Below are positions 2,614 to 62,859 of a stretch of 64,000 nt of DNA, piece by piece. The notes beneath the pieces are model-generated. The model had not been told where the DNA came from. It did not search any database and saw nothing but the letters and a program-made list of their open reading frames with translations. Each line of letters opens with the position of its first letter. Within the stretch, counting starts at the first letter, position 1. The stretch is from an uncultured Bacteroidales bacterium. GTDB taxonomy: Bacteria > Bacteroidota > Bacteroidia > Bacteroidales > F082. Made by a program: the position numbers and the translations under genes. The DNA is taken from NCBI GenBank assembly GCA_905234275.1, contig CAJOHD010000001.1, positions 204,519 to 268,518 of the forward strand, given 5' to 3'.

Positions 2614-2620
2614 ATCTTAT

Positions 2621-2690
2621 AAACTTTTAACTTTCAACTTTTAACTTTCAACTTAAAAACTACTCTAAACTCTCAACTCTAAACTTTACA
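2621..2690. repeat. short degenerate direct repeats in a spacer
   Basis: The spacer between ACP and methyltransferase contains repeated copies of aacttttaactttcaac and variants (ctctaaactctcaactct). Similar low-complexity spacers made of short words are found at 43774-43838, 45254-45328 and 62796-62831. No function is evident. Confidence 0.5.
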
Positions 2691-3783
2691 CTTTCTTGCA
2701 AATCATAATGCTGTGTCCATGTCCCAATCCGTCATGAATCATCTCAACTTCCAATCCTGCCTTCTTCACGAGGCGTTCCATATCGTCGGAATGGTACATC
2801 TTGCTGTTTCCATTAGCTAAAGCTGTGAAATACAACGATGTCATCGTCAATGCGAAGGCGGCGGCAGGGTAGTTTTGGCGATCCCAGAATGTCTCCATGA
2901 TGCACAAACGGCTGTCTTTATCCATGATTTTCGCAGCTCTTGAAACTATGCTCAAAATCTCGTCTTCGCCAAAGCAGTCAAGGAACTGACTCATCCAGAT
3001 GATGTCGTAATGTTTGTTTGTCGGGAACTGCTGAACGTTATCCAACAGATTGATTCCGTAGCCGTCGATGCGCTCGAAGCCTTTCTTGCCTTTGGTGAAT
3101 TCCTTCATCATCTCAAGTTGTTGTGGCAGATCCATGATGGTGACGTTGACATTTTCGTCGAAATCGACGCAACGAAGTGCCCAACGACCGGTGTTTCCGC
3201 CGACATCGAGCAAGGTCTTCGGCTTGCTGCTGAACACAATCTGCAATGCCTGGTCAAACGAGTGGTCTGAATAGAAATGGTCGAAGCCAAACCAGCTTTT
3301 CTGCACGTCGGCAGGCAGCTGCGAGAGACCTTCGTAGATCGTCGGCCAGTCTCCGAAATGCTCTAAACCTGCAGGTTTTCCTTCTTTCAGAGCCTCTTCA
3401 AGCTTGAACCATCCCTCGTAGTTGACGTCGTGATTGAAGTCGATATTTACGCGGATGGCAGGGTCGGTGAGGAGAAAGAAACCGGTCTTCGACATGGTGA
3501 AACGGTCGGTGTCTTTGTCCAAAATTACCAAACCGATGCAGAGCGAGCCTTCCATCAAGACTTTTACTGCGTAGTCGGAAAGTCCAGTCTTTGCTGCTAT
3601 CTCAGCCATCGTCATGCCTTTCTCGCTGTCACGGAGCATGTCGAGGATGCCGAATTTAATCATCAGTCGTCCGACTTGGAATATTATAGGTCCGAAAGCG
3701 ATGAAATATGCCATCTCCTGGGCTTCACCAGCGCGTTTATGCTCTTTCGTATATGCCTTCTCGAGGCCTGGAAACAGTTTCAT
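2686..3783 (-). CDS. SAM-dependent O-methyltransferase (dimerisation winged-helix type)
   Basis: Methyltransferase of 365 residues with an N-terminal winged-helix dimerisation region (about 20-110, with the helix-turn-helix-like MTMAEIAAKTGLSDYAV) and a C-terminal Rossmann domain. The SAM-binding motif I is LLDVGGNTGRW near residue 190, followed by the acidic position in IMDLPQQ. It resembles small-molecule O-methyltransferases. In this operon the likely substrate is the aryl head group or a ring methylation site of the polyene, which is an inference from position. The stop is separated from the ACP start by the repeat-rich spacer, and its own start lies 2 nt after the ketosynthase stop. Confidence 0.82.
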   Translation of the reverse strand: MKLFPGLEKAYTKEHKRAGEAQEMAYFIAFGPIIFQVGRLMIKFGILDMLRDSEKGMTMAEIAAKTGLSDYAVKVLMEGSLCIGLVILDKDTDRFTMSKTGFFLLTDPAIRVNIDFNHDVNYEGWFKLEEALKEGKPAGLEHFGDWPTIYEGLSQLPADVQKSWFGFDHFYSDHSFDQALQIVFSSKPKTLLDVGGNTGRWALRCVDFDENVNVTIMDLPQQLEMMKEFTKGKKGFERIDGYGINLLDNVQQFPTNKHYDIIWMSQFLDCFGEDEILSIVSRAAKIMDKDSRLCIMETFWDRQNYPAAAFALTMTSLYFTALANGNSKMYHSDDMERLVKKAGLEVEMIHDGLGHGHSIMICKKV

Positions 3784-11158: not shown

Positions 11159-12226
11159 CTATTTAACAATAAGTTTTTCAGACAATCTGTCGTTCATTTT
11201 AACAAAATAAACACCTTTTTCCAGCGTAACTGTCTCTTTCTCAACGATTTCTTTTTGCAAAACTATCTGCCCGAGCATATTTGTGATTGTCACAATCCCA
11301 CTGCCTTCTATCGTGACATTTCCGCTTGAAGGGTTAGGGTAGATGTTTAGCGTCGTGATGTTGCATTCATCGATCGATTCATATCCTGCTGTTGCCCATA
11401 GTGTAAGCATCGTTGTGGCACAATCGCAATCGAGGGTAAACAAGATGTCGACAAAGCCCATTTCACCGACTGTGATGTTAGGAGTCAATGTTGCTACTCC
11501 GGTAAACTCAACTGATTCGTCAGGTTCAACATGAAATGTGGTACATGCCTCTCCATCTTTGTAGAGATGAACATCGGTGAAATACTCGCTAATGCAGTTG
11601 ATGCGGACACCTGACGGCTCATATCCCAAGTTGGTGAACACGCAGTCGAATTCGACTTGTGAGCCTGGAGCTGCCAGTGTGTAATAGTTTGCAGGCTCCA
11701 CGATAATGTCGTATTTTCCGACCATATCGACAATAACGTCGTCGATTGTAAGAACATAATCACCATAACTTGATACCGCGTGAATGCCGATATATGTGAA
11801 ATCGGATGTCATCTCTTCTATGTAAGCCGAGAATTTCTCATAGCTGCCGCTGCTGACAATCTCGTTGAGCATTATTTGGGTCATTGCGCTTGGATTTGCT
11901 CCGTTGCCAGCCCAAATCTCCAACTGGTAGCCGCCGTCTGATACTGCCCAAAGTGAGAAGCGATATTTCAACTGTTCGCTCAAATACATGGGCATAAACA
12001 TCCACGATTCGGTGCTGTTTGTGTAGGCGTACCAATTGCCGTTGTGTGGTATGCGGTTGTGGTCTTGTTCAAGATATCCGGCGAGCCAGGTGTCGTTGGC
12101 GACCTCCCATCCCACAGGCGTTTCGCCATCGTGGTTGCCATATTCGAACCCTTCGATGAGCACGCTGTCGGCAAATGCAAATCTTGTTATGAACAATATT
12201 AATAAGGTGATAAAAAGTTTTTTCAT
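11159..12226 (-). CDS. secreted choice-of-anchor/cleaved-adhesin domain protein with T9SS tail
   Basis: Protein of 355 residues: signal peptide (MKKLFITLLILFITRFAFA), a cleaved-adhesin or choice-of-anchor J-like jelly-roll domain at about 22-170 (IEGFEYGNHDGETPVGWEV, GNWYAYTNSTESW, TIDDVIVDMVG), an Ig-like region, and a T9SS type A sorting tail (IYPNPSSGNVTIEG ... GVYFVKMN ... EKLIVK). It is predicted to be secreted across the outer membrane and anchored on the surface. It points away from the CsgG-array region, with the candidate RNA lying between. Confidence 0.8.
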   Translation of the reverse strand: MKKLFITLLILFITRFAFADSVLIEGFEYGNHDGETPVGWEVANDTWLAGYLEQDHNRIPHNGNWYAYTNSTESWMFMPMYLSEQLKYRFSLWAVSDGGYQLEIWAGNGANPSAMTQIMLNEIVSSGSYEKFSAYIEEMTSDFTYIGIHAVSSYGDYVLTIDDVIVDMVGKYDIIVEPANYYTLAAPGSQVEFDCVFTNLGYEPSGVRINCISEYFTDVHLYKDGEACTTFHVEPDESVEFTGVATLTPNITVGEMGFVDILFTLDCDCATTMLTLWATAGYESIDECNITTLNIYPNPSSGNVTIEGSGIVTITNMLGQIVLQKEIVEKETVTLEKGVYFVKMNDRLSEKLIVK

Positions 12227-12272
12227 AGTTATTTATATATCAACATGCAAAAATACAAAAAATTTAATCTTT

Positions 12273-12304
12273 TTTGTAATTAATTCAAAAAATCACTATA
12301 TTTG
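12273..12304 (+). promoter_or_regulatory. promoter of candidate structured RNA
   Basis: TTTG at 12273-12276 and TATATTTG at 12297-12304, separated by 20 nt. This is a near-ideal match to the Bacteroidota -33/-7 promoter pattern. Transcription should start near 12309-12311, about 360 nt upstream of the next start codon. Confidence 0.75.
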
Positions 12305-12309
12305 CAGTG

Positions 12310-12582
12310 TCATTAGTCATAACGACTTTTGGCGGACATATTGGAAAGACGTTGATCTAACGTTTTATCTGCGGCTTGTAGAATCTGGTAAATTCAATAG
12401 TCATCAGCAAGATAAAGCAATAGACGACGTCCATGCGAATTGTTATATAATGGTGTTGCCCAACACCTACTTATATATAACTTTCCAGCGTGGGCTTCGG
12501 CGTTGCTTATCCTCTGATGATGGGCATTACCAGAGCCTTACAAGCGGGATAGGCATAGTTCAGACTCCCGCGCTTTTCTTTT
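12310..12582 (+). ncRNA. candidate structured RNA or regulatory leader
   Basis: No convincing gene fills 12310-12671. The first 273 nt follow a good promoter and end in a terminator. Helices found by eye: ACGTT/AACGT around 12350-12363; a long hairpin (GTTATATAA with TTATATA, capped by GGTGTT-GCCC-AACACC) at 12442-12481; CAGCG/CGTTG with a TTCG loop near 12486-12505; and GCTTATCC (12505-12512) with GGATAGGC (12547-12554). The last helix shares bases with the terminator stem, so the two exclude each other, as in attenuators. It could be a stand-alone RNA or a leader for the following operon. I cannot assign a known family. Confidence 0.5.
12544..12582 (+). terminator. intrinsic terminator of the candidate RNA
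   Basis: GCGGGA (12544-12549) pairs with TCCCGC (12566-12571) and is followed by GCTTTTCTTTT. The upstream arm overlaps an alternative helix, and the CAGACTCCC at 12561-12569 can alternatively pair with GGGAGTCTG at 12617-12625. Confidence 0.65.
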
Positions 12583-12596
12583 ATGTTTCATGATTT

Positions 12597-12604
12597 TATA
12601 TTTG
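12597..12604 (+). promoter_or_regulatory. second -7 box, likely promoter of the LPP20/CsgG operon
   Basis: TATATTTG lies 15 nt after the terminator and 67 nt before the lipoprotein gene. No clear TTTG is seen at -33, so it may be weaker or regulated. Confidence 0.5.
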
Positions 12605-12671
12605 TTATTCGGCATTGGGAGTCTGCCGGAAGTAAGAATTTACTATTCAATAACTATAAATTATTAAAATC

Positions 12672-13295
12672 ATGAAAAAGTTAAATTTACTTGGAATGAC
12701 AATGCTTGGAGCATTGGTATTGGTAAGCTGTGGAAGTTCAAAAAACATGGCTGTACAGTCAAACATTGAAAAACAAACAAGTCTTGAAGGGGAAAAAGTT
12801 GTTGTTGAAACAACAAAACTTACTGGCTACGAAATGTCAGAGGGTCTTAGTGAAGACGGTACTAAACTTGTTACAATCGCTTATAAGTGGTTCGCAGGTA
12901 TTGGTAAAGCTAACGATAAACAAACAGCTATCGAGATGGCTGAACTTGAGGCAAGAGCAACAATTTCTAGGGTTATAGAAAATGCAGTCATGGCTCAGTC
13001 AGAGCGTGGTAGTTTGGTAAACAACGGAGAAGTTCAGAAGGCATTAAAATCACATTGGCAACAGGTTAGTATGAGCATTCAGAATGCATGTGAGCCTTTT
13101 GGAGACACCAAAATCGAATATAATCCAACCACAAAGATGTATACAGCGACTCAGAAAGTTGCTTGCCGTGGTGACAAATACCAGCAAATGCTCAACAATG
13201 CAGGAAATTACAAGCCTAACAACCTTAGTGGTAAAGACCTTGATGATTTCGTAAAAGTAAATCAATCAATTATTGATGCAGCAAGAGGAAATTAA
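12672..13295 (+). CDS. LPP20-like lipoprotein
   Basis: Lipoprotein of 207 residues with lipobox LVSCGSS (Cys near residue 20). The body has the segment DKQTAIEMAELEARATISRVIENAV, resembling the LPP20/FlgP-type fold in which a helix rich in Ala follows a KANDKQ turn. It ends DAARGN. A close paralogue without a lipobox is encoded two genes downstream (14303-14863) and shares RPYRWFAG/AYKWFAG, ALKSHW and ACEPFGD. First gene of an operon of five exported proteins. LPP20 and CsgG-like proteins often act together in outer-membrane assemblies (family knowledge); the assembly here is unknown. Confidence 0.75.
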   Translation: MKKLNLLGMTMLGALVLVSCGSSKNMAVQSNIEKQTSLEGEKVVVETTKLTGYEMSEGLSEDGTKLVTIAYKWFAGIGKANDKQTAIEMAELEARATISRVIENAVMAQSERGSLVNNGEVQKALKSHWQQVSMSIQNACEPFGDTKIEYNPTTKMYTATQKVACRGDKYQQMLNNAGNYKPNNLSGKDLDDFVKVNQSIIDAARGN

Positions 13296-13298
13296 TCC

Positions 13299-14306
13299 AT
13301 GAAAAGAATATTAACTATAGTATTGCTGCTGTTTGTTGGATATGTTGCAAAGACGCAGAATTATCCGTCGGAATGGGTGAAATATACCTCCGACGGATAT
13401 TTCCATGATATAGAGAATGCAAAGGACAAACAAACAGCCTTGGATCTGGCTCGCTCAAATCTTGCAAAACAGATTCAAGTTCAAGTACAAGAGCAGAGCC
13501 AAATTGATAAGCAAGCAATTAATGGCAAGACCAATATCCTTTATTCTTCACAGAAGAACTTTTCTACAGATGTCGATATGGATCTTGCGCAGACTCTTAG
13601 CTATTATGATGCAAACACTTCAAAGTATTATGTTATTGCATATATTAATAAACAAGAAGCTTGCAATTACTATGAAAACGATGTGAAAATGTTTATCAGC
13701 AATGTGAATAATATCATAACAATTGCTGATAATTACACAAACTCAGGATTTAAGTCAAGGGCGAAGGAAGAACTTCAAAGAGCCTTGGACATGTTTGATG
13801 GTAGAATAGGTAAGCCTTTCTTTTGGCTGAATGTTTTTGGCTTAGATGAGTATGATATCAAACAATATCTTAATAAGGTAAACAAACTTGAACAGACTGT
13901 TAAATCGAAACTCGCAGATTTGGAATATGGTACTACATATTGTATTGTGTGTACCGCAGATAATTTCGGGCGCAAGTATTTCAAATTGGCTAATGAGATA
14001 AAGGGTGATTTAGCAGAATCTGGCTGTAACTTTGTTGATGATCCGAGTATGGCGGATTATGTGATTTATATTGATGCTTCAGCGAGGGAATATAATAAAG
14101 TCGTAACAGGTAATGTGACGGCATATTATACTTTCGTTGACGCTGCAATTGCAATTGACAAAGTGGCGACCAATCAGAGAATATTCGAAGACGAGATTTC
14201 GTTAAAGGGCTCTCATACATTGAGTTTTGACGAAGCTGGTCGTGACGGATACAAAAAGATTCGCAAAGAAATAAGCTCAATATTAAAGGAGAATATTAAA
14301 TTATGA
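13299..14306 (+). CDS. exported LPP20-like protein
   Basis: Protein of 335 residues with a signal peptide (MKRILTIVLLLFVGYVAKTQ) and no lipobox. The N-terminal part (about 22-130) matches the LPP20-type pattern: YPSEWVKYTSDGYFHDIENA, DKQTALDLARSNLAKQIQVQ, and YYVIAYINKQEA. A helical middle (about 130-200) is followed by a beta/alpha domain at 205-335. It starts 3 nt after the upstream lipoprotein stop and overlaps the next gene by 4 nt. Likely periplasmic; the function is not known. Confidence 0.7.
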   Translation: MKRILTIVLLLFVGYVAKTQNYPSEWVKYTSDGYFHDIENAKDKQTALDLARSNLAKQIQVQVQEQSQIDKQAINGKTNILYSSQKNFSTDVDMDLAQTLSYYDANTSKYYVIAYINKQEACNYYENDVKMFISNVNNIITIADNYTNSGFKSRAKEELQRALDMFDGRIGKPFFWLNVFGLDEYDIKQYLNKVNKLEQTVKSKLADLEYGTTYCIVCTADNFGRKYFKLANEIKGDLAESGCNFVDDPSMADYVIYIDASAREYNKVVTGNVTAYYTFVDAAIAIDKVATNQRIFEDEISLKGSHTLSFDEAGRDGYKKIRKEISSILKENIKL

Positions 14307-14863
14307 AGAAAGAGTTATTAACAGTTATTATGCTGTTGCTTGTTATGACAATAACAGCACAAAACACTACAACAAAAACCATAAAGACAAATGGTTATGA
14401 AATGATCGAGACCATGAATGACGATGGTACGGATATGATCAAAAGACCTTATCGCTGGTTTGCAGGTATGGCAGAAGCTGATGTTGAATCAGTTGCTGTT
14501 GAAATGGCGCAGCTTGAGGCTTATGCGACGGTTTCACGTGTTATAGAAAATGCAGTGTCAACTAATGCAGAGCGTTCTACATTAACAGTTGACGGAAAAG
14601 TTGCAAAAGCTTTGAAATCACATTGGGATCAGATGAGTTTTAGCATACAGAAAGCATGCGAGCCTTTTGGCGATGCTATTTCAACATATAATTCTCAGAC
14701 AGGATTATATGAGGTAATAGCAAAGGTCGGCATTCGTGGCGATCGTTATGTTAAAATTCTTGACGGTGCTAAAAAGGTACAACCAGAAGGCCTTTCAAAA
14801 GAAGAGTTGCAGGAGTTTATAGAAGTTAACGATGCGATCATTGATGCTGCAAAAGGCAATTAA
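14303..14863 (+). CDS. exported LPP20-like protein, paralogue of 12672-13295
   Basis: Protein of 186 residues with signal peptide MKKELLTVIMLLLVMTITAQ. It is closely similar to the first lipoprotein of the operon (shared GYEM, YRWFAGMAEAD, ATVSRVIENAV, ALKSHWDQMSFSIQKACEPFGDA, IIDAAKGN) but lacks the lipobox Cys. The pair would place one copy in a membrane and one free in the periplasm. The start overlaps the previous stop (ATGA). Confidence 0.75.
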   Translation: MKKELLTVIMLLLVMTITAQNTTTKTIKTNGYEMIETMNDDGTDMIKRPYRWFAGMAEADVESVAVEMAQLEAYATVSRVIENAVSTNAERSTLTVDGKVAKALKSHWDQMSFSIQKACEPFGDAISTYNSQTGLYEVIAKVGIRGDRYVKILDGAKKVQPEGLSKEELQEFIEVNDAIIDAAKGN

Positions 14864-14897
14864 TGAAAGGATTTATCAATTGAATTAAAATATTTAT

Positions 14898-15956
14898 ATG
14901 AAAAATTTATTATTTTTTGTCTTGCTACTTTCGTTGTCGTTGGGGTTGTATTCTCAAGATAAAAAAGTTGCTGTAATGGAAACTAAAGCAGGTCAAGGAG
15001 TCACTGCATTTCAAAGTAATATGATTCGAGGCGGAATGGAGACGGCCATTGCTAATGCTAAAGGATATGAGGGATTTGACCGTTCTGCTTTTGATGTCAT
15101 TATGCAGGAGCAGAATTTCCAACGTTCTGGCGCTGTTGATGAAGCTCAGATTAAAGAATTAGGTCAGATGGCTGGTGTTCAATACATTTTAGTGACCGAA
15201 GCTGAATCTGAAGATGGATATTTATATATTCTAGCAAAACTTCTTGATGTGGAAACAGGTAAATATGGTAAAGCATATGATAAACTTTGTGAATCAAATC
15301 CTGCTGCTATACGCCAAGCTTGTCTTGAATTAGGCGAACGTTTGTTTGATGTTACAATGTCTTATCACAATGTGGCGACCCCTCCTAAACCAAATTATAA
15401 CAATACACAAACAAAAACTACTGAAGGACAGTCCTATATGTCTGGTTCAAATAGTAAAGTTGGTGATGTGATAGCTTTTCAGGATGGAACACAAGGCGTT
15501 GTTTTTTATATAGACAACGGGCAAGGTTTGGCTGTTTCACTTACAGAGAGAGAGTTAAAATGGGATGGTAGTCGCAAACTTGAAGATATTGTATCACTTA
15601 ATAATACTGATGAAAACAACCATCCATTTGTATATGGTCAAGGTAAAACAAATACACAAGCAATTATACAACAATTGGGAACAAATGCAGAAGCAGCAAA
15701 TTGGTGTACAAGAATGGGTGAAGGATGGTACTTACCAAGTGCAGGAGAGTTGTATTGTTTAATGATGGCATCTAAAAAAGGTACAGTATTGAACAATAAA
15801 CTTAATTCTAGTGGAGCAAGATTGAGCGGATGGTATTGGGCAAGTACCGAGAATAGTAGAAAAGAGGCCATTAATATAAGTGATGGGGGATCTGTATTTA
15901 CTGAAGACAAGAATTCAGAAGTTAAAGTTAGAGCTATAAGGGCTTTTACAGAATAA
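14898..15956 (+). CDS. CsgG-like protein with DUF1566-like C-terminal module
   Basis: Exported protein of 352 residues. Signal peptide 1-19; CsgG-like domain about 22-155 (KKVAVMETKAG, MIRGGMETAI, FDRSAFDVIMQEQNFQRSGA, MAGVQYILVTEAE, AKLLDVETGKYG); then a C-terminal region ending in a DUF1566-like module (MGEGWYLPSAGELYCLM, SGWYWASTEN, VKVRAIRAF). The CsgG domain of curli exporters builds a periplasmic ring, but there is no lipobox and no barrel hairpin here, so a pore is unlikely. First of six relatives with nearly constant N-terminal and changing C-terminal parts. Confidence 0.75.
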   Translation: MKNLLFFVLLLSLSLGLYSQDKKVAVMETKAGQGVTAFQSNMIRGGMETAIANAKGYEGFDRSAFDVIMQEQNFQRSGAVDEAQIKELGQMAGVQYILVTEAESEDGYLYILAKLLDVETGKYGKAYDKLCESNPAAIRQACLELGERLFDVTMSYHNVATPPKPNYNNTQTKTTEGQSYMSGSNSKVGDVIAFQDGTQGVVFYIDNGQGLAVSLTERELKWDGSRKLEDIVSLNNTDENNHPFVYGQGKTNTQAIIQQLGTNAEAANWCTRMGEGWYLPSAGELYCLMMASKKGTVLNNKLNSSGARLSGWYWASTENSRKEAINISDGGSVFTEDKNSEVKVRAIRAFTE

Positions 15957-15995
15957 TGAGTTAAAATTTTTATTAACATTTAAAATTTTAGTATA

Positions 15996-16964
15996 ATGAA
16001 AAGATTATTTACGTTAGTTTTAATGATGTTAGTGACATCATTTATTATGGCACAAACCCCTGTGAAAAAGGTGGCAGTTATGGAAACTAAAGCATCTGCA
16101 GGTGTTTCAGATTTTCAAAGCCAGATGGTTCGTGGTGCTATGGAAGCTGCTGTCGTAACAGCAAAAGGATACGAAGGTTACGATCGTACAGCTTTCGATG
16201 TTATCATGCAAGAGCAGAATTTTCAACGTTCAGGAGCTGTTGATGAGTCTCAAATCAAGCAGTTGGGACAGATGGCAGGCGTTCAATATGTTTTGGTAAC
16301 TGAAGCATCGCAGGAAGATGGCTATTTCTACATTCTTGCTAAACTTCTTGATGTGGAAACTGGAAAGTATGGTAATGCCTATGATGTTCTTTGTAAACAA
16401 TCACCAACGGACATAAAGGAATCTTGTGCTGAATTGGGTTCTAATTTATTTGGCAACGGTAAAGGCCCTTCCAAAAAAAGCAATGTTAATATGATTCCTG
16501 TTGACCAGGTTGCTGAAGTTTCAGCTGTTAATACACAACCATCAGAAGAAGTGGATCCTGTAAAACGCATTAAAAGGGTTTGGATGGCTTATTATATGGA
16601 TGGGAAACGTTTGACCAATGAACGTTATATGGATTTAATAAATGGTTGTAGTGAAGCAAAAGCGACATATGATAGAGGAAAAAAGATAAAAACAGCTGGT
16701 TATATTACATTGGGTTGTGGCGCTGCATTGCTTGCAGTTGGAATAGCAAATTATGCTGGTGGTTCAGATTATGGTGACAATGGTATTAATGAACCAGCGG
16801 TAATTGGAGCCGCAGTATGCTTGGCGTCAATTCCGGTGTTTATTTGGGGTAAAAACGTAAGAAATAGCGCCTATAAAGACTATAATGACTATTGTGCTAA
16901 ACCTGCAACTAATTTAAGTTTAAATGTTAAAAACAATAGTGTTGGTATTAGTTTGAATTTCTGA
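15996..16964 (+). CDS. CsgG-like protein with C-terminal membrane hairpin
   Basis: Protein of 322 residues with signal peptide 1-19 and a CsgG-like domain at about 24-155, very similar to that of the upstream gene (FDVIMQEQNFQRSGAVDESQ). The C-terminal part is unlike its relatives: a linker, then VWMAYYMDGKRLTNERYMDL, then two hydrophobic stretches (GYITLGCGAALLAVGIANYA and AVIGAAVCLASIPVFIWG) that look like a membrane hairpin. It may tether the group to the membrane (inference). A strong terminator follows, so it closes the first transcription unit of the array. Confidence 0.75.
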   Translation: MKRLFTLVLMMLVTSFIMAQTPVKKVAVMETKASAGVSDFQSQMVRGAMEAAVVTAKGYEGYDRTAFDVIMQEQNFQRSGAVDESQIKQLGQMAGVQYVLVTEASQEDGYFYILAKLLDVETGKYGNAYDVLCKQSPTDIKESCAELGSNLFGNGKGPSKKSNVNMIPVDQVAEVSAVNTQPSEEVDPVKRIKRVWMAYYMDGKRLTNERYMDLINGCSEAKATYDRGKKIKTAGYITLGCGAALLAVGIANYAGGSDYGDNGINEPAVIGAAVCLASIPVFIWGKNVRNSAYKDYNDYCAKPATNLSLNVKNNSVGISLNF

Positions 16965-16985
16965 TGTTTTTTTAATATTTAACAT

Positions 16986-17027
16986 AACAACAAGAGAACG
17001 CCAAACTGGGTGTCTCTTGTTGTTTTC
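16986..17027 (+). terminator. intrinsic terminator between the two halves of the CsgG array
   Basis: AACAACAAGAG pairs with CTCTTGTTGTT, extended after a bulged base by ACGCC/GGTGT, loop aaactg, then TTTTC. It separates 12672-16964 from the genes starting at 17101. Confidence 0.75.
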
Positions 17028-17100
17028 ATAGTTATTTAGATAAACGATGCCATTATAGGTTCGGCAAAAGGTAACTGATATATACGATCATTAATTTTAT

Positions 17101-18018
17101 ATGATAAGAAAACTCCTTGTTCTCACGCTTGCGCTAATTATCACTGCATCAGTCGTGGCGCAGAAAAAAGTCGCTGTTTTGGAAACCAAATGCACCGACA
17201 ATAGTATTACGTCGTTCCAGAGTACTATGGTGCGAGGCGGTATGGAAACTGCAGTGGGAAATACACCCGGGTATAAGGTTTACGACCGGAGTTCGTTTGA
17301 CGCAATTATGAAAGAACAGAATTTCCAACGCTCAGGAGCCGTTGATGACCAGCAAATCCGCCAATTGGGTGTTATGGCTGGAGTACAGTATATCATTGTG
17401 CCTGAAGCTACTGCTGCTGGTAATGAGTTTTACATCTTGGTGAAAATGCTTGATGTGGAAACCGGTGAATTCGGTGCCGTTTATGAAGAGTTGTGCGGCC
17501 CATCAGGCTCTGAAATAAGGCAAGCATGCTCTAATCTTGGTGTTCAGCTGTTTGGCTCAACTGGTGGTACTAGAAGTAGTGTTTCTAATAGTAGTATATC
17601 GAAGTCTTATAATAATACGATACAAGAGTACATTGATTTGGGACTTAGCAGCGGCACTAAGTGGAAACGCACTAACGAATCTGAATTGATGGATTATCAT
17701 ACAGCTTATAGCAACTACGGTAGTTCAATACCAACAATTAGCCAGTGGGCGGAATTAAAAAATCATTGTACCTGGACATGGACGGGTAACGGTTATAAAG
17801 TGACGGGTCCCAACGGGAACTACATTACATTACCGGCCGATGGTTTTCGTGAGTTCAAAGATGGTATTATTTACGGTAAAGACACTTCAGGCTATTATTG
17901 GATGTTTGATAACGGTAAAGATCAGGGCAATGCACAGTGCCTATTAATCACATCTTCTCTGGCAAAATATGAGAAGTTAGGTGCCGTTTATGGTTTCTCT
18001 GTAAGGTTAGTTAAATAA
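17101..18018 (+). CDS. CsgG-like protein with FISUMP-like C-terminal module
   Basis: Exported protein of 305 residues: signal peptide 1-20, CsgG-like domain about 21-155 (KKVAVLETKCTDNSITSFQS, SFDAIMKEQNFQRSGAVDDQ, EFYILVKMLDVETGEFG), a Ser-rich linker, and a C-terminal module starting EYIDLGLSSGTKWKRTN, typical of the Fibrobacter succinogenes major paralogous (FISUMP) domain. The CsgG part is closest to that of 18992-20224, including the shared SITSFQSTMVRGGMETAVGN. First gene after the internal terminator. Confidence 0.75.
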   Translation: MIRKLLVLTLALIITASVVAQKKVAVLETKCTDNSITSFQSTMVRGGMETAVGNTPGYKVYDRSSFDAIMKEQNFQRSGAVDDQQIRQLGVMAGVQYIIVPEATAAGNEFYILVKMLDVETGEFGAVYEELCGPSGSEIRQACSNLGVQLFGSTGGTRSSVSNSSISKSYNNTIQEYIDLGLSSGTKWKRTNESELMDYHTAYSNYGSSIPTISQWAELKNHCTWTWTGNGYKVTGPNGNYITLPADGFREFKDGIIYGKDTSGYYWMFDNGKDQGNAQCLLITSSLAKYEKLGAVYGFSVRLVK

Positions 18019-18038
18019 GGATTTAATAATGAATTAAT

Positions 18039-18929
18039 ATGAAACGATTATTATGTATTGCCATGTTAATGGCATTGAGTTTTACGCTTTTTGCACAAAC
18101 AAAAAAGGTTGCAGTTTATGTGACAGGAGAGCAAACTGGTATTAATAAGGTACTAGGTGACCAACTTGTAGAAGCATTTACACGTAGTGGTAAATATGTA
18201 GCTATTGAACGTACGGCTAGTTTTTTAGCAGAGATTAGTAGAGAGCAGAGTTATCAACGAACAGGAGCTGTTAGTGATAATGAAATAGCCAGTTTGGGTA
18301 ATCAATTTGGCGTACAATATGTTTGTGTCGCAGATGTTTCTGAAGTTTTTGGAGAGAAATATATTTCGGCGAGACTGATAGATGTTGAAAGCGTAGTTGT
18401 TATTAATACTGCTAATACAAGTAGCAAGCTACAAAATATGGATGATTTGATAAAAGCGTGTTCGTCAATAGCGACCAAATTGTCCGGAAAAACAGCAAAA
18501 GAGGCGGCTGCCGAAGCTGCTGCAAAAGCTGCAGAAGAAGCACGCTTGGCTAAAGAACGTGAAAATTTCTTCAAACAAGCTATGGAAGCAGGTTATATTC
18601 GAGTGTCAAATCTATATGTTGTCTGTGATATTAATTCTGGCGGAGGTTTTGATGCAGCAAAGTATTGTACAATTGGAGGTTACAAAGATTGGAGAATTCC
18701 CACACCTTCAGAACTTTCAATGATTAAAAGGCAATATTGTGATTGGGCAAATGAAGCATATAAATATTCTTCAAGCGTTTCATCTTTCTTAAATAACTTA
18801 TGTTCTCGAATGAGCGAAAAGCCATTTTATGTTGATGGAGGTAATGTGAAATACTTCTTGACACCGGAAGGTAGACAAGCTAACGGTTGGGAGACTATTT
18901 ATAATTTATTTGTTAGGGATATTAAATAG
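18039..18929 (+). CDS. CsgG-like protein with Ala-rich helix and DUF1566-like end
   Basis: Protein of 296 residues and the most divergent CsgG-like member: signal peptide 1-19; domain about 22-150 (KKVAVYVTGEQTGINK, EISREQSYQRTGAVSDNE, FGVQYVCVADVSE); a charged Ala-rich helix about 155-180 (KEAAAEAAAKAAEEARLAKE); and a short DUF1566-like module (GGYKDWRIPTPSELSMI). The helix could be a rigid spacer or coiled coil. It lies 20 nt after the FISUMP-type gene. Periplasmic location inferred. Confidence 0.7.
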   Translation: MKRLLCIAMLMALSFTLFAQTKKVAVYVTGEQTGINKVLGDQLVEAFTRSGKYVAIERTASFLAEISREQSYQRTGAVSDNEIASLGNQFGVQYVCVADVSEVFGEKYISARLIDVESVVVINTANTSSKLQNMDDLIKACSSIATKLSGKTAKEAAAEAAAKAAEEARLAKERENFFKQAMEAGYIRVSNLYVVCDINSGGGFDAAKYCTIGGYKDWRIPTPSELSMIKRQYCDWANEAYKYSSSVSSFLNNLCSRMSEKPFYVDGGNVKYFLTPEGRQANGWETIYNLFVRDIK

Positions 18930-18991
18930 ATGATATTGCAGATGGTGATATATGAAATTTGCAATTATAGCATCTATTAAAAAATATAAAT

Positions 18992-20224
18992 ATGAAGCGT
19001 TTTTTATTTCTTACAATCATTGTCGTAATTATTGGGTTGACTGTTGCAGCACAAAACACAAAGAAAGTGGCAGTGTGGGAGACCAAATGTTCAGACAACA
19101 GCATAACGTCGTTCCAGAGTACTATGGTGCGAGGCGGAATGGAGACTGCGGTAGGCAACACTCCTGGTTATGAGGTTTACGACAGGAGTGCGTTTGATGC
19201 CATTATGAAAGAGCATAATTTCCAACGCTCAGGAGCCGTTGATGACAAGCAAATCCGCCAATTGGGTGTTATGGCAGGAGTTCAGTATATCATAGTGCCT
19301 GAAGCCACTGTTGATGGCAATGAGTTTTACATCTTGGTGAAAATGCTTGATGTGGAAACTGGCAAATTCGGTGCCGTTTATGAGGACCTATGCGGACCAT
19401 CCGGAGCGGAAATACGAAAAGCCTGCTCAAATCTTGGAGTACAGCTTTTTGGCTCTTCGGGCAACACTGGCGGCAGTTCCACAACCCGACCATCAAACAG
19501 CAACACCTCAACCAGCCGTGGTGCTTCTTCTTTGAACTTCAGCGTTAATGGTGTTAACTTTGAAATGATAAAAGTTGAAGCGGGCAGCTTCACTATGGGC
19601 TGTACCTCAGAGCAGGGCGGCGATTGTTATGATTGGGAGAAACCTTCGCATCGTGTTACAATTACACAAGACTATTACATCGGTAAGTTTGAGGTGACAC
19701 AGGAATTGTATAAGGCTGTCATGGGCACTAACCCGAGCTATTGGAAAGAATATAATCGTCCAGTTGAAAATGTCAGTTGGAACGACGCTATGGAATTCTG
19801 TGCAGAGCTTAGCCGTCTGACAAGCCGCCAGTTTACACTTCCCACTGAGGCGGAATGGGAATACGCCGCACGTGGCGGTAAAAAGAATGAATGCACAAAA
19901 TATGCAGGAGGATGGAGCATTGGCTATGTGGCATGGTACTCCGATAACAGCGGTAGCTCCACACATGTCTGCGGAACGAAACGAGCCAATGCGTTGGGTA
20001 TTTACGACATGAGCGGCAACGTTTGGGAATGGTGTCTAGATAGGTATGGTAACTACAGCAGTGCAAGTCAGACCGACCCTATGGGGTCGTCATCAGGCTC
20101 GAACCGCGTGTATCGGGGCGGTGGCTGGGGCCACGACGCTGAGAACTGTCGAGTCTCGTATCGGCGCGGCTACACTCCTGACTACCGTTACCGCAATCTG
20201 GGCTTCCGCGTTGTGCTCCATTAG
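18992..20224 (+). CDS. CsgG-like/FGE-sulfatase fusion with a DGR-like variable C-terminus
   Basis: Protein of 410 residues: signal peptide 1-21; CsgG-like domain about 22-150 (SITSFQSTMVRGGMETAVGN); Ser/Gly/Thr linker 152-180; formylglycine-generating-enzyme-type domain about 183-410 (MIKVEAGSFTMGCTSEQGG, YYIGKFEVTQELY, LPTEAEWEYAARGGKKNE, ALGIYDMSGNVWEW, GFRVVLH). FGE-type domains have a C-type-lectin fold and are recurrent targets of diversity-generating retroelements (family knowledge). Residues about 367-410 are encoded by the variable repeat. Probably a binding protein rather than an enzyme. The start at 18992 gives a normal signal peptide. Confidence 0.8.
   Translation: MKRFLFLTIIVVIIGLTVAAQNTKKVAVWETKCSDNSITSFQSTMVRGGMETAVGNTPGYEVYDRSAFDAIMKEHNFQRSGAVDDKQIRQLGVMAGVQYIIVPEATVDGNEFYILVKMLDVETGKFGAVYEDLCGPSGAEIRKACSNLGVQLFGSSGNTGGSSTTRPSNSNTSTSRGASSLNFSVNGVNFEMIKVEAGSFTMGCTSEQGGDCYDWEKPSHRVTITQDYYIGKFEVTQELYKAVMGTNPSYWKEYNRPVENVSWNDAMEFCAELSRLTSRQFTLPTEAEWEYAARGGKKNECTKYAGGWSIGYVAWYSDNSGSSTHVCGTKRANALGIYDMSGNVWEWCLDRYGNYSSASQTDPMGSSSGSNRVYRGGGWGHDAENCRVSYRRGYTPDYRYRNLGFRVVLH
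20088..20224 (+). repeat. candidate DGR variable repeat 1
   Basis: Aligns without gaps to 21492-21628. Twenty substitutions are seen (20102, 20103, 20111, 20136, 20141, 20142, 20145, 20159, 20165, 20166, 20168, 20169, 20171, 20172, 20184, 20189, 20190, 20192, 20193, 20195). All are at codon positions 1 or 2, and 16 have an A in one of the two copies. Identity resumes at 20198 and continues past the stop codon to 20237. No reverse transcriptase or template repeat was found in the window. Confidence 0.8.
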
Positions 20225-20268
20225 TTTTTCTATGGCGATATCAGTCCTCATATTAAGCTGAAAAAGAA

Positions 20269-20343
20269 GCCCTGTATAGCTTGGATTGAGCGCGACGCAG
20301 GCGAGGGACGAGCAGCGTCGGTGAATGGAAAGGAATACAGGGC
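20269..20343. repeat. nested inverted repeat downstream of variable repeat 1
   Basis: GCCCTGTAT (20269-20277) is matched by ATACAGGGC (20335-20343), and inside it CGACGC (20293-20298) by GCGTCG (20315-20320). It lies 45 nt after the stop codon. DGR targets often have a hairpin or cruciform just after the variable repeat; this one is larger and more distant, so the link is only suggestive. Confidence 0.6.
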
Positions 20344-20371
20344 GGGAAAGGAAATAAATAGAAAAAATTAT

Positions 20372-21628
20372 ATGAAAAGAACTTTTATTATCACAGTTTT
20401 ACTAATGCTTTCGGCATTTGTAATGGCTCAAAACACAAAAAAAGTAGCAATCCTTGAAACAGTTGACAAGGAGAACAAAGTTGAATATGGAGTTGAGTTG
20501 CAATTGCGCGGTTATTTGACCGATGCCATTAACAGGACACCTGGCTATGAGGGTTATGATCGTGTTGATATGTCATCTATTTTGGGCTAACACAACTTCC
20601 AGAGAACTGGTTATGTGAGTGACGCGCAGATTAAAAAACTCGGTGAGATGACGGGAGCAAGCTCAATAATTGTGGCAGAAGCGGCTTTGTACGGCTCAGA
20701 CAGAATTATTGTGACAGCTAAGATTATTGATGTTGAGACAGCACGTATTGAGAACACATCTAGACCTAAAGTGGCCAGTACCAGTGATGACGGCATGGCG
20801 AAAGCATGCGCGGAACTTGCCATAGAGCTTCTTGGAATGACAAGAAACACTGGTAGTTATACTTCTGGTGGATCAAGTGCCAATAGCTATTCATCTGGCC
20901 AGGACTTCACCGAGACAGCCTTTGGCATAAACATGAAGATGGTTTATGTTGAAGGTGGCAGCTTCACCATGGGCTGTACTGGTGAACAGGGTAGCGACTG
21001 CGATGATGATGAGTCGCCGAACCGCTATACAAAAGTGAACTCTTTTTATATCGGCATGCTTGAGGTGACACAAAGCCAATGGGAGAAGGTGATGGGAACA
21101 ACAATTTACCAGCAAAAATCAAAAGCAGGTGCTTCAAACACTTATGGCACTGGTCCTGACTATCCTATGTACTATGTGAGTTGGGAGGAGACGAAGGAGT
21201 TTTGTGCGAGACTGAGCCGTCAGACAGGAAAGAACTACAGTCTTCCTACCGAAGCCGAATGGGAATACGCCGCACGTGGCGGTAAAAAGAATGAAGGCAC
21301 AAAATATGCAGGAGGATGGAGCATTGGCGATGTGGCATGGTACTCCGATAACAGCGGTAGCTCCACACATGTCTGCGGAACGAAACAAGCCAATGCGTTG
21401 GGTATTTACGACATGAGCGGCAATGTTTGGGAATGGTGTGAGGACTGGTACGGCCCATATCTGTCATACGACACCGACAACCCTAAAGGCGCGTCATCAG
21501 GCTCGTGCCGCGTGAATCGGGGCGGTGGCTGGGGCCACGGCGCTAGGATCTGTCGAGTCTCGGATCGGAACTACCTCACTCCTGACTCCCGTGGCAACTA
21601 TCTGGGCTTCCGCGTTGTGCTCCATTAG
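20372..21628 (+). pseudogene. CsgG-like/FGE-sulfatase fusion interrupted by an in-frame stop
   Basis: Reading from the ATG at 20372 gives a signal peptide (MKRTFIITVLLMLSAFVMAQ) and a CsgG-like start (KKVAILETVDKENK). A TAA at 20588-20590 then falls exactly where relatives have the Gln/Glu of KEQNFQRSG. The same frame continues (HNFQRTGYVSDAQIKK, ASSIIVAEAA) to the end of an intact FGE-type domain (VYVEGGSFTMGCTGEQGSD, LPTEAEWEYAARGG, GFRVVLH). One base change from CAA or GAA explains the stop. A GTG at 20615 could restart translation, but without a signal peptide. Most likely a recently broken gene, or a sequencing error. Confidence 0.7.
21492..21628 (+). repeat. candidate DGR variable repeat 2
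   Basis: Partner of 20088-20224 at a constant offset of 1404 bp. The 3' boundary block CTGGGCTTCCGCG through the stop codon and the following TTTTTCTATGGCG is identical in both copies. Variable codons include tgc, aat, ggc, agg, atc, gat, aac, tac, ctc and tcc, all but agg reachable from AAC or AAT by changing A only. Confidence 0.8.
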
Positions 21629-21687
21629 TTTTTCTATGGCGCAATCCGAACTCATATTAAGCTGAAAAAACGGTTTATTATAATGAA

Positions 21688-21715
21688 GTAGAGACGCACG
21701 GCCGTGCGTCTCTAC
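21688..21715. repeat. REP palindrome, copy 1
   Basis: Perfect 28-nt palindrome GTAGAGACGCACGG plus its complement. Lies upstream of the transposase gene and is matched by copies at 22119, 22433, 40766 and 62832. Confidence 0.9.
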
Positions 21716-21818
21716 GTGTTTTATATCGCCTTTTGTTAACAAATTTTAACACAGTTTTCATTTTTCTGCAAGTTATGTTAAAAATTGTGAAAAACGATAA
21801 CTGTATTGTTTTTAGCGT

Positions 21819-21826
21819 TATCTTTG
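21819..21826 (+). promoter_or_regulatory. -7 box of transposase gene
   Basis: TATCTTTG, a match to TAnnTTTG, 25 nt upstream of the ATG at 21852. No clear -33 element. Confidence 0.5.
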
Positions 21827-21851
21827 CCACAAGTTTCTAAAAATTAGAATT

Positions 21852-22436
21852 ATGGAATCTGTTTTTCAAAACAAATACAAAATTGCATCAAATCGTTTGT
21901 GCGGATGGAATTACGCTAGCGACGGGCATTATTTTATAACAATTGTAACCGCAAATAGAGAGAATCATTTTGGGAAAATAATGGATGACAAAATGATAAT
22001 GAACGATTGGGGACAAATCGTTTATGATGAATTTTTTAAATCATTTGAAATGCGGCAAGAATTGTATTTAGGAGGATTTGTTTTAATGCCCAATCATATT
22101 CATGCAATTGTTTCAATCGTAGAGACGCACGGCCGTGCGTCTTCACCAAAATCAAATGACGGACCAAAATCAAATAATACAACCAAACAATTAATCAGGC
22201 AACCACAATCAATATCATCATTCATTGCTGGTTTTAAATCGGCAACGATAAAACATATAGACGATTGGATCGATATAAACAATCCCAATATGCCAAAATT
22301 TAACCGACGTAATCCATTATGGCAACCAAATTATTATGACCATATTATTCGGTCAGAAAAAGAATATATGCAAATATCAGGATATATTGTTGATAACCCA
22401 TTGCATTGGGAGAAGGATAGGAATAAAACAATGTAG
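21852..22436 (+). CDS. REP-associated tyrosine transposase (RAYT, Y1_Tnp family)
   Basis: Transposase-like protein of 194 residues. The HUH metal-binding motif is MPNHIHAIV (His82, His84). The N-terminal strand is DGHYFITIVTANRENHF, and the catalytic Tyr lies in the YYDHIIRSEKEYMQISGYIV region followed by DNPLHW. RAYTs are single-copy, domesticated relatives of IS200/IS605 enzymes that act on REP palindromes (family knowledge). Here REP palindromes sit on both sides, a third lies inside the gene and encodes ETHGRAS at residues 91-97, and the downstream copy supplies the stop codon TAG at 22434-22436. The internal insertion falls between conserved blocks, so the protein may stay active. Confidence 0.9.
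   Translation: MESVFQNKYKIASNRLCGWNYASDGHYFITIVTANRENHFGKIMDDKMIMNDWGQIVYDEFFKSFEMRQELYLGGFVLMPNHIHAIVSIVETHGRASSPKSNDGPKSNNTTKQLIRQPQSISSFIAGFKSATIKHIDDWIDINNPNMPKFNRRNPLWQPNYYDHIIRSEKEYMQISGYIVDNPLHWEKDRNKTM
22119..22146. repeat. REP palindrome inside the transposase gene
   Basis: GTAGAGACGCACGGCCGTGCGTCT followed by an imperfect end (TCAC instead of CTAC). In frame it encodes VETHGRASS. Confidence 0.9.
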
Positions 22437-22460
22437 AGACGCACGGCCGTGCGTCTCTAC
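22433..22460. repeat. REP palindrome overlapping the transposase stop codon
   Basis: Perfect 28-nt copy. Bases 2-4 of the palindrome (TAG) are the stop codon of the transposase gene. Confidence 0.9.
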
Positions 22461-22504
22461 GATCAATCATATGATTCTACATCATTTGATGTGTGGTATG
22501 GACA

Positions 22505-25414
22505 TTATAATTTTCTTGAAACTTCTTTCTCCGTATAACCTTCAATAATATCTCCAACCTTGATGTCGTTGAAGTTCTCGATGTTCAAACCGCATTCGAA
22601 GCCTGCGGAAACCTCCTTCACGTCGTCTTTGAAACGTTTCAGAGAGCCGAGTGTGCCTTGGTGAACCACGATGCCGTCGCGGATGAGACGTATCTTCGTC
22701 TGACGGTTGACCTTTCCGTCGAGCACCATACATCCTGCGATATTTCCAACCTTGCTGATGTGAAACACCTCACGGATCTCGATGTTGCAGGTGACGACCT
22801 CTTGGATCTCAGGAGCCAACATACCTTCGATAGCTGACTTGATTTCCTCGATAGCAGTGTAGATGATTGAGTACAGACGGATATCGATCTGCTCTTTCTC
22901 GGCAATCTTTCTGGCTTGCATTGTAGGACGCACGTTGAAGCCAACGATGACAGCGTTGGATGCTGATGCCAGCATGATATCGGCCTCGCTGATGGCACCC
23001 ACTGACTTGTGGATGATGTTGACCTGTACCTCTTCTGTCGAAAGCTTCAGCAATGAGTCGGACAATGCCTCCACAGAGCCGTCAACGTCAGCTTTGACGA
23101 TGATGTTGAGCTCTTTGAAGTCGCCGATGGCGATACGACGTCCGATCTCATCCAAAGTGATGTGTTTCTGGGTTCTGATACCCATCTCACGCTGCAGCTG
23201 CTGACGACGGTTGGCGATGGTCTTAACCTCGCGTTCGTCGGTCATGACGTTGAAGTTATCGCCTGCCTGAGGAGCGCCGTTCAAACCTAACAGCAGCAAT
23301 GGGGTAGAAGGACCTGCTTCTTTCAACGGCTGGTTACGCTCGTTGAACATAGCCTTCACCTTGCCGTATGTCGTGCCTGCGAGAACCATGTCGCCCACAT
23401 GCAATGTGCCTTCCTGAACGAGGAGTTTTGCCACATAGCCACGTCCTTTGTCGAGAGCCGACTCGATGACAGTACCCTTGGCTAATTTGTTTGGATTACC
23501 CTTGAGGTCGAGCATCTCAGCCTCGAGAAGCACCTTCTCAAGAAGCTCGTCGACGCCGATACCTTGTTTTGCTGATATCTCCTGTGACTGCACCTTGCCG
23601 CCCCATTCCTCGACGAGGATGTTCATGTCGGCAAGCTGACGGTAAATCTTCTGTGGGTCAGCTGTTGGCTTATCGATCTTGTTGATAGCGAAGACGATAG
23701 GCACGTTAGCAGCATGTGCGTGGTTGATAGCCTCGACGGTCTGCGGCATCACGTTGTCATCAGCGGCGATGACGATGATGGCGACGTCGGTGATCTTAGC
23801 ACCACGGGCACGCATAGCGGTGAACGCCTCGTGACCAGGAGTATCCAAGAAGGTGATCTTCTTGCCAGTGCTGGTCTTCACCTCGTAAGCACCGATATGC
23901 TGGGTGATACCGCCAGCCTCGCCAGCCACCACGTTGGTGCTTCTGATGAAGTCCAACAACTTGGTCTTACCGTGGTCGACGTGACCCATGACGGTGACGA
24001 CAGGAGCTCTTGGGACGAGGTCTTCCGGATTGTCAGGCTCGTCGGCTTCTGCGATGGCTTCCTGCACGTCCATGCTCTGGAACTCGACTTTGAAGCCGAA
24101 CTCCTCTGCTACGACTTGCAGAATCTCAGCGTCCAGACGCTGGTTGATGCTGACGAACATTCCGAGACTCATGCAGGTGGCGATGACCTTGGTCACAGGG
24201 ATGTTCATCAAGGTTGCCAACTCGTTGGCGGTGACGAACTCCGTGACCTTGAGGACTTTCTGTTCCTCCATTTCGTGCATTCTTTCCTCCTCAAGCTCGT
24301 TCTGGATGTTGTGACGTTTCTCACGACGGTGCTTTGAAGTCTTAGATTTTCCTAATGGCGACAGTCTAGCGAGAGTCTCCTTGATCTGTTTCTGGATTTC
24401 TTCATCCGAAAGCTCTGGTTTCTCTTCGAAGATAGGCTGTTTACCCTTCTTGAAGCGGTCTTTCGAGCGTTTCTCATCCTTGCCAGGTTTTCCACCTTGG
24501 CCTTGCTGCTTGCCACCTTGTTGTGGCTTACCACCTTTATCTTTTGGCTTGTCTGCACCTGCTATCTCGTTAGGGTTGACAGGTGAGTTGCCTATACGTT
24601 TGCGTTTTTTCTTCTTGTCCTTCTTGTCTTCACCAGATGTCGCTACAGGTTTGCCTTTGCCTTTATGCTCCACAGGAAGCTCGATCTTATCGACAATCTT
24701 AGGGCCTTCCAGCTTTGTGAACTTAGTCGGGATGAAGTTGTCCTCAGCTTCATCTTTAGGTTCAGGCTGAGCTGGCTTCTCAGGCTGTGCCGGTTGTACT
24801 GGTTGTACCGGTTTTGGCTGTGGTTTTGGCTGAACCGGCTTCGGTGCCTCGACAGGTTTTGCCGGTTGTGCTGGCTTTTCTTCCTTCGGCGCACTATTGG
24901 GCTGTCCGTTACCCTTAGGCTCCTTGGCTTTCTTTCCGCCGTCCAAATCAATCTTTCCGACCACATTCAGCTTGATGGCGTCTTTCACACTGTCATCTTT
25001 CGGTTTTTCCGCCTTTGGCTTCTCTTCAACCGTCTTCTCCTCTGTTATCTTTTCTCTATTATCTGTTATCTCCTTCTTCTCCTCTTTATCCTTCTTATCG
25101 TTAACGAGGATATTCGATTTAATAGAGACAATTTCCTCCTCCTCTTCAACGACTTTCGGCTTCTCCGTCGTCTCAACGGTGATGGTTTTGCCTTTGAAAG
25201 CGATGTTTCCGAGCTGGTCGGCATTTTTCTTCACTTCTTTTTCGCCCTGATATTCCTTCACGACGAGGGCATACTGCTCCTCTGTGAGCTTGGTGTTTGG
25301 CGATGGGTCGATGTTTTGACCTTTCTTGGCAAGAAATTCCACAATTGTCGAGGTGCCTACGTTAAACTCCCTCGCAGCCTTTGATAATCTGATGTTTTTA
25401 ACTTCTTCGGACAT
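22505..25414 (-). CDS. infB: translation initiation factor IF-2
   Basis: GTPase of 969 residues that brings initiator tRNA to the 30S subunit. IF2_N motif at the start ([21 protein letters not shown]); a long low-complexity Lys/Pro/Gln/Glu-rich linker about 100-340 with [17 protein letters not shown]; a second IF2_N-like stretch about 390-450; then the G domain with G1 GHVDHGKT, G3 DTPGHEAF and G4 NKIDKP; and domains II-IV to the end. Last gene of tRNA-Gln, rimP, nusA, infB. A 151-nt gap holding a family A repeat separates it from nusA, which may affect co-expression. Confidence 0.98.
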
Positions 25415-40765: not shown

Positions 40766-40793
40766 GTAGAGACGCACGGCCGTGCGTCTCTAC
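40766..40793. repeat. REP palindrome, remote copy
   Basis: Perfect 28-nt copy between two convergent genes, 18 kb from the transposase. Confidence 0.9.
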
Positions 40794-62831: not shown

Positions 62832-62859
62832 GTAGAGACGCACGGCCGTGCGTCTCTAC
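62832..62859. repeat. REP palindrome after rpoC
   Basis: Perfect 28-nt copy of the palindrome found around the transposase, preceded by a spacer of repeated agacgttagat-like words (62796-62831). Confidence 0.9.

Follow-up and report, generated by a model that had tools for sequence, protein, structure and literature searches.

The window analyzed here is a 64,000-nucleotide stretch of DNA from an uncultured Bacteroidales bacterium of family F082 (G000:C1:204519-268518; G### denotes genomes, L### loci, and P#### database proteins), in which two neighboring genes, gene 1 and gene 2, end in closely matching blocks at 20088-20224 and 21492-21628. From sequence comparison, we consider these blocks almost certain to be variable repeats (VRs) of a diversity-generating retroelement (DGR), VR1 and VR2, because the sites at which they differ coincide with adenines in the template repeats (TRs) of related cassettes, and because the same pattern of differences separates the two VRs of one such cassette, L102. 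It is probable, furthermore, that a DGR reverse transcriptase (RT) rewrote both blocks from one template, and that this machinery, which was not found in the source assembly (G000, GCA_905234275.1; a draft of 2,582,266 bases in 27 contigs, completeness 100), has been lost. Our confidence in a DGR origin is the sum of that placed in two readings weighed below, in which the blocks are either targets stranded by such a loss or remote targets that are still active.

Differences between the Two Blocks

VR1 and VR2 align without gaps over 137 bp and differ at 20 bases spread over 13 codons, with 10 differences at first, 10 at second, and none at third codon positions (hypergeometric probability for 0/20 at the third position, 1.3e-4). 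One copy carries A at 16 of the 20 sites, all 13 changed codon pairs can be derived from AAC or AAT (in one case AAG or AGG) through changes of A only, and the match between the two sequences extends 13 nt beyond the stop codon. These features had been described in an earlier note on the same DNA, and we obtained the same counts on deriving them again. Upstream of the blocks, a further pair of segments (19851-20035 and 21255-21439) is near-identical, with a divergent stretch of ~50 bp lying between it and the VR block; as only 5 of 185 bp differ in this upstream pair vs 20 of 137 bp in the VR block, divergence jumps within the repeat.

Variation was also seen among database proteins. Five of these share 88-91% identity with the gene 2 piece (gene 2 is interrupted, as described below); their differences from it fall at 55 of 65 variable codons, 17 of 95 other residues within the block, and 101 of 1485 upstream residues. 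Two relatives of the gene 1 protein, P0002 and P0003 (84 and 82% identical to it), match each other through the first 368 of 434 alignment columns and diverge in 24 later ones, some of which lie outside template-A codons, and we therefore excluded this pair as clean VR variants. The gene 1 protein itself is represented by a single sequence in four database contigs (the longest of 1,003,889 bases), which are perhaps not independent, and the gene 2 piece (326 aa in the database) by two sequences in four contigs.

Templates and Intact Cassettes in Relatives

Sequences matching VR1 occur in 11 of 149 genomes, including G000, all belonging to one genus. Because RT domains are common in these genomes (PF00078 in 83 of 149, and a profile of eight RTs in 52 of the 99 genomes of the genus), we counted only RTs adjoining both an HRDC gene and a repeat. 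Such HRDC-RT neighbors are present in G001, G009, G039, G063 (two), G069 (two), and G151, and a contig scan returned six titled loci, on five contigs of Bacteroidales metagenome-assembled genomes (MAGs; red deer, rumen, goat rumen, and horse faeces) and in one Odoribacter MAG; L100, L101, and L104 duplicate DNA of the G063 and G001 contigs. In L053, the target spans 700-1935, the HRDC gene 2070-2540, the RT gene 2503-3489, and the template 3504-3625. As in gene 1, the targets of the intact cassettes L053, L056, L059, L102 (two), L103, and L131 (the last from outside the family) join an LpoB/FlgT/CsgG-like N-terminal domain, hereafter the scaffold, to an FGE domain, and the records consulted for these six loci do not annotate them as DGR cassettes; the scaffold was not seen in the targets of L054, L055, L057, L106, and L132.

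The 20 sites at which VR1 and VR2 differ are A in the relatives' templates at 20/20 positions for L056, at 19/20 for L053, L054, L055, and L060, and at 18/20 for L057 and L059, an excess with one-sided Fisher probabilities from 4e-14 (L056) to 4e-9 across the seven templates. Six of these templates are paired with a VR, and that of L060 is presumed, no A-biased pair having been found at this locus. We regard this match as a stronger test than the codon-position pattern, and one independent of it. The RT-bearing cassette L102, which comprises two tandem scaffold-FGE targets together with HRDC, RT, and template, has all of its VR mismatches at template adenines (17/17 and 16/16), and offers a yardstick. 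Over 125 bp, the two VRs of L102 show 20 differences (10/10/0 by codon position, 15 with A), the window pair 20 differences (10/10/0, 16 with A), and a pair of blocks in G048, where RT is lacking, 42 differences distributed as 15/11/16. The proposal of the earlier note that the blocks bear a DGR signature on FGE domains is thus upheld both by the template adenines of the relatives and by the equal pattern in L102.

The sequence downstream of each block is likewise of the VR type. Compared with L053, the 3′ flank of VR1 scores 50 against the VR flank and 18 (direct) or 30 (inverted) against the TR flank, and that of VR2 scores 74 vs 14 and 27, such that a flank of the homing-site type is present at both repeats. 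Predicted folding of VR flanks is weak (-2.7 to -7.2 kcal/mol for 10 of them; -4.4 to -8.5 kcal/mol for 5 TR flanks) and was not used as evidence.

G039 contains two FGE targets on contigs other than that of its cassette. In L063 (5721-5852), all 13 mismatches fall at template adenines, with none at the 98 other positions, and the VR flank is intact; in L067 (3042-3173), the right half of the flank is lost and four non-A mismatches are present. This amounts to a natural test of the flank, with one case on each side.

Some loci fall outside these comparisons. At L105, a short contig carrying HRDC and RT, no VR/TR pair was found, and no A-biased pair was found at L060, L109, 11 of 14 further loci, or L148, which were left out of the flank counts given below. 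We note that in L103 (6001-7122) the RT frame continues through the template repeat, so that the predicted C-terminus is an unmutated FGE end. Other DGRs of the genus (L107, L108, L111, L112, L113, and L058) have A-only VR/TR pairs (9-19 mismatches) beside an RT without HRDC, with VR and TR close together and long target proteins that look phage-like by eye.

An Inverted Template Flank in HRDC-Type Cassettes

In nine of ten VR/TR pairs from the genus and the named MAGs, the ~30 nt 3′ of the VR reappear 3′ of the TR in inverted form, and the same holds for L131 and L132, which belong to other Bacteroidales families, giving 11 of 12 HRDC-type pairs in total (L053, L054, L056, L057, L059, L102, L103, L106, L131, and L132 are the loci concerned). 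The observed scores are reached by 0-1 of 500-1000 shuffles. All 12 pairs carry HRDC, and the sole miss is L055 (188 of 1000 shuffles), where visual inspection shows inversion of a 7-base core flanked by TTCTTG/CAAGA arms. None of seven Bacteroidales cassettes without HRDC (L058, L107, L108, L111, L112, L113, and L133) shows the inverted flank; the contrast of 11/12 with 0/7 has a Fisher probability of 1.6e-4, calculated on related loci. Outside the Bacteroidales, no inverted flank was found in L146 (which has both HRDC and Avd) or L147, and that of the Bordetella phage BPP-1 is weak.

In such cassettes, the template RNA may pair with the target strand at the inverted flank and so prime its own copying. 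The available excerpts of the literature, covered in a non-exhaustive search, describe a hairpin after the VR and the initiation of mutagenic homing elements IMH and IMH*, and do not describe an inverted template flank (PMC3240598, PMC12875486, PMC4372165); retrohoming is still called incompletely understood in a 2026 paper (PMC12875486). If it recurs in more HRDC-type systems, the inverted flank would offer a lead, open to testing, on how targets are recognized and cDNA is primed.

Search for the Machinery in the Source Genome

The earlier note had predicted an RT elsewhere in the genome, together with an A-rich third copy of the VR1 block. Neither was recovered: in the 27-contig draft of G000, no RT was found with PF00078, with the L053 RT at E up to 10, or with the profile built from eight RTs, and VR1 matches only itself and VR2 (E ≤ 1e-3). 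The only HRDC-like stretch in G000 lies inside a 742-aa frame, which we took for RecQ, and no cassette HRDC was found, while the same search identified eight cassette HRDC genes in six other genomes. Avd, the accessory protein of BPP-1 in place of HRDC (labelled simply bbp7 in its record), was not searched for. Searches of the same types for RT, HRDC, and repeat do give matches in congeners. A template-flank pattern had one match in G000, as did its control.

A phage or plasmid source of the cassette was considered and rejected, as no close RT was found there: the exact VR/TR pattern had no matches in viral contigs, in which the L053 RT matched one contig at 36%, and the best matches of this RT in 162 phage records and at least 5000 plasmid records are all below 60% identity.

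Stranded or Active Targets

The reading that we consider probable builds on the known DGR mechanism, in which error-prone copying of a template RNA at its adenines would have produced a cDNA that replaced each VR, yielding many variants of the C-terminal, C-type-lectin-like FGE domain of an exported envelope protein. The cassette would then have been lost, leaving the window blocks as stranded targets. Loss is favored because gene 2 contains a stop codon, because no RT, template, or HRDC was found, and because both G048 and Treponema denticola provide precedents; that it was recent is suggested by the lack of any difference between VR1 and VR2 at non-adenine sites. Relaxed constraint would agree with this stop. 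Loss through recombination of a VR by the TR was rejected for VR2, which has kept its VR-type flank.

A number of observations weigh against this reading. Both VR flanks in the window look intact, and the zero non-adenine differences would equally suit a cassette that is still working. Trans action does occur in the genus, given that the remote target L063 has 0/98 non-A mismatches. The synteny of the G063 and G048 loci (see below) leaves cassette loss and later gain unseparated, the seven templates are mutually related, so that the template-A tests are not independent of one another, and the assembly is a draft, so the absence of a cassette is not proven.

We consider it possible, but less probable, that the blocks are active remote targets, rewritten in trans by a cassette located in unassembled sequence or in an unbinned mobile element. 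Such targets are described in PMC10907252, and L063, with its intact flank, its 13/13 mismatches at A sites, and its position on another contig than the G039 cassette, would be an example in this genus; the fragmentation into 27 contigs and the zero non-A differences between VR1 and VR2 also agree with this possibility. It has to contend, however, with 2.58 Mb of sequence, rated 100% complete, which yielded neither an RT nor a cassette HRDC nor a third copy of the repeat, with the lack of a close RT in viral contigs (one, 36%) and in phage and plasmid records (<60%), with the interruption of gene 2, and with the single gene 1 protein sequence in four, perhaps not independent, database contigs. 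Of the suggestion in the earlier note that these are remote targets, trans action retains some chance in a draft of this kind, but stranded targets fit better.

Two other readings fare worse. One dispenses with a retroelement: the paralogues would recently have undergone gene conversion, after which strong positive selection for amino-acid change would have acted on the FGE binding face. This would account for the failure to find an RT in G000, and exchange evidently happens here, as the adjoining 185-bp block is near-identical (5 differences) and other paralogues share a block at 90% identity. This scenario nevertheless leaves unexplained both the coincidence with the template adenines of relatives and the equality with the pattern of the L102 VR pair, and VR-type flanks have been kept, making it very improbable. 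That one of the blocks is itself the template repeat can practically be discounted: in either copy A is missing from several of the 20 sites, even if some codons are AAC or AAT in one or the other, and both blocks end genes in frame and are followed by flanks of the VR type rather than the inverted template type.

A wider scheme may be sketched, which we put forward tentatively and think rather unlikely to hold in full. In it, a Bacteroidales branch of HRDC-type DGRs would diversify a lectin-like domain borne by a ring-forming envelope scaffold of the FlgT/LpoB/CsgG-like type that is made together with an LPP20-like lipoprotein, the inverted template flank would prime the copying, and the present genome would be just past cassette loss, its repertoire frozen.

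Target Genes and Their Neighborhood

The coordinates of the target genes and surrounding features are collected in Table 1.

Table 1. Features of the window, with positions counted from its first nucleotide
Feature	Position	Strand	Basis
Gene 1: exported LpoB/FlgT/CsgG-like domain + FGE (PF03781), 410 aa	18992..20224	+	Pfam, models, fold searches
VR1, 3′ end of gene 1	20088..20224	+	ungapped pair with VR2; template-A match in relatives
VR-type 3′ flank of VR1 (homing-site region)	20225..20266	+	flank score vs L053
Gene 2, 5′ piece: signal peptide + start of N-terminal domain	20372..20590	+	open reading frame list; ends at TAA 20588-20590
Gene 2, 3′ piece: rest of N-terminal domain + FGE with VR2, 337 aa from GTG	20615..21628	+	open reading frame list, Pfam
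VR2, 3′ end of gene 2	21492..21628	+	ungapped pair with VR1; template-A match in relatives
VR-type 3′ flank of VR2	21629..21687	+	flank score vs L053; alignment
Three partner genes: 12672-13295, 13299-14306, 14303-14863	12672..14863	+	second is a weak LPP20 match
Four scaffold paralogues without VR: 14898-15956, 15996-16964, 17101-18018, 18039-18929	14898..18929	+	alignment, genome search
Inserted block of ~10.3 kb holding all these genes	12265..22520		infB synteny; boundaries vs L117

The VRs occupy the 3′ ends of genes for proteins of the FGE/C-type-lectin fold (PF03781). The FGE domain of gene 1 has TvpA as its best match both in sequence (7.4e-36) and in predicted fold (2y3c; 3.7e-20, template-modeling (TM) score 0.71 by target and 0.49 by query), and the gene 1-TvpA alignment is gapless within the VR. 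The model of the full gene 1 protein is of moderate quality (mean predicted local distance difference test score, pLDDT, 75.5; predicted TM score, pTM, 0.56), and that of the N-terminal domain alone is better (pLDDT 84.5, pTM 0.77). The predicted fold of this domain is nearest to LpoB, FlgT, TolB, and PelC, with CsgG appearing from rank 38. Among the proteins tried, only the paralogue at 17101-18018 passes the Pfam CsgG cut-off (PF03783; 23.5 vs 20.8 bits), with gene 1 at 14.0 bits falling below it and two homologues carrying PF03783. The CsgG-like scaffold named in the earlier note therefore holds in a wide sense, the fold being nearer to the other four families than to CsgG. Six scaffold copies are present in G000, and at least one match in 28 of the 99 genomes of the genus, G000 included. 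Two of the scaffold genes share 278 bp at 90% identity (17209-17486 and 19106-19383) and differ in their C-terminal parts, which may reflect scaffold reuse or gene conversion.

Gene 2 is interrupted by an in-frame TAA within its N-terminal domain, a feature absent from the earlier note; the scaffold profile match at G000:C1:224890-225354 contains one TAA, and five homologues (415-423 aa) have no stop at this point.

The second partner gene scores 19.9 bits against the LPP20 family in Pfam, below the cut-off of 25.9. Upstream of the targets, L056, L103, and L110 show all three partner genes, L059 the second alone, L102 the third alone (at the locus start), and L053 none.

Matches to infB occur in 95 genomes, among them G000, and from these we drew 14 relatives, comprising high-ranking ones plus G048, G063, G083, G014, and G042. 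In all 14, infB adjoins the homologue of the gene at 11159-12226, so that the ~10.3 kb block is an insertion between the two, and no scaffold gene was seen at the infB locus of these relatives in stretches of up to 15 kb (6.5 kb for L119). In G063 and G048, scaffold-FGE genes instead sit between dsbD and an M20 peptidase gene, a place that holds none in G000 (contig C4). At this locus, G063 has HRDC, RT, and TR; its G048 counterpart, on a contig of 193 kb, contains two targets but lacks a cassette, and neither RT nor cassette HRDC was found elsewhere in G048. That the locus is the same in both is argued from dsbD, the M20 peptidase gene, and an apparent remnant, judged by eye, of the next gene.

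To the right of VR2, the segment 21731-21860 shares 81% identity with DNA a short way downstream of the L053 template and was initially read as the edge of a cassette-shaped deletion; the element is dispersed, and this candidate scar was not used. The dispersed element (21725-21865 in the window, up to ~130 bp) has seven matches in G000 and 4-11 in five relatives. A 22-bp palindrome occurs five times (21691-21712, 22122-22143, 22436-22457, 40769-40790, and 62835-62856), once with a mismatch, against an expectation of 0. The copies surround an IS200-like (Y1_Tnp) gene at 21852-22436 next to VR2 and extend past it. We take the palindromes and this gene to resemble a pair of repetitive extragenic palindrome (REP) and RAYT. 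Elsewhere in the window, a second paralogous pair (30826-32159 and 32597-33930; 71-88% identity in five pieces) shows ordinary, unbiased differences.

Comparison with Known Systems

The fusion of an LpoB/FlgT/CsgG-like scaffold to an FGE domain adds a target class for DGRs, and a literature search found no paper joining diversity-generating retroelements with CsgG. DGRs of gut Bacteroides pili have reportedly also been studied. The loci described here also form a natural series for diversified genes losing their machinery, from intact (L053, L102, and L103) through likely recently stranded (the window) to decayed (G048).

The nearest systems are the HRDC-type cassettes of the genus and order (L053, L056, L059, L102, L103, and L131), which have the repeat family and the scaffold-FGE target type in common with the window; in L103 and L056, all three partner genes lie 5′ of the target, as they do here. 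These cassettes carry HRDC, RT, and template, none of which was found in the window, and the G063 and G048 targets lie between dsbD and the M20 peptidase gene, whereas the window cluster is beside infB.

FGE targets, several VRs per system, targets acting in trans, and targets without RT are all known from earlier work (PMC3521204, PMC8144416, PMC10907252, PMC3240598, PMC4891356, PMC12875486, PMC4372165). The TvpA DGR of Treponema denticola (2y3c) is alike in its HRDC accessory gene, its FGE/C-type-lectin target, and its several targets per genome, and some isolates keep targets without RT and template; it belongs to another phylum, and the excerpts of the source that were available do not mention an LpoB/FlgT/CsgG-like domain (PMC4891356). 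The remote targets of Thiohalocapsa PB-PSB1, as far as the available excerpts describe them, resemble the window in lying apart from the RT, in including FGE among the targets, and in the mobile elements at their loci, but differ in that RT and template are present in the genome and in having other target architectures (PMC10907252). The BPP-1 DGR (AY029185) shares the A-specific VR/TR differences (17/17) and a 3′ flank element after the VR, but has a phage tail target and no clear inverted template flank (score 28, reached by 2 of 500 shuffles). Finally, the family of LpoB, FlgT, the TolB N-domain, PelC, and CsgG resembles gene 1 in the predicted fold of its N-terminal domain, at 7-15% identity, with the window protein set apart by its fused FGE domain bearing a VR.

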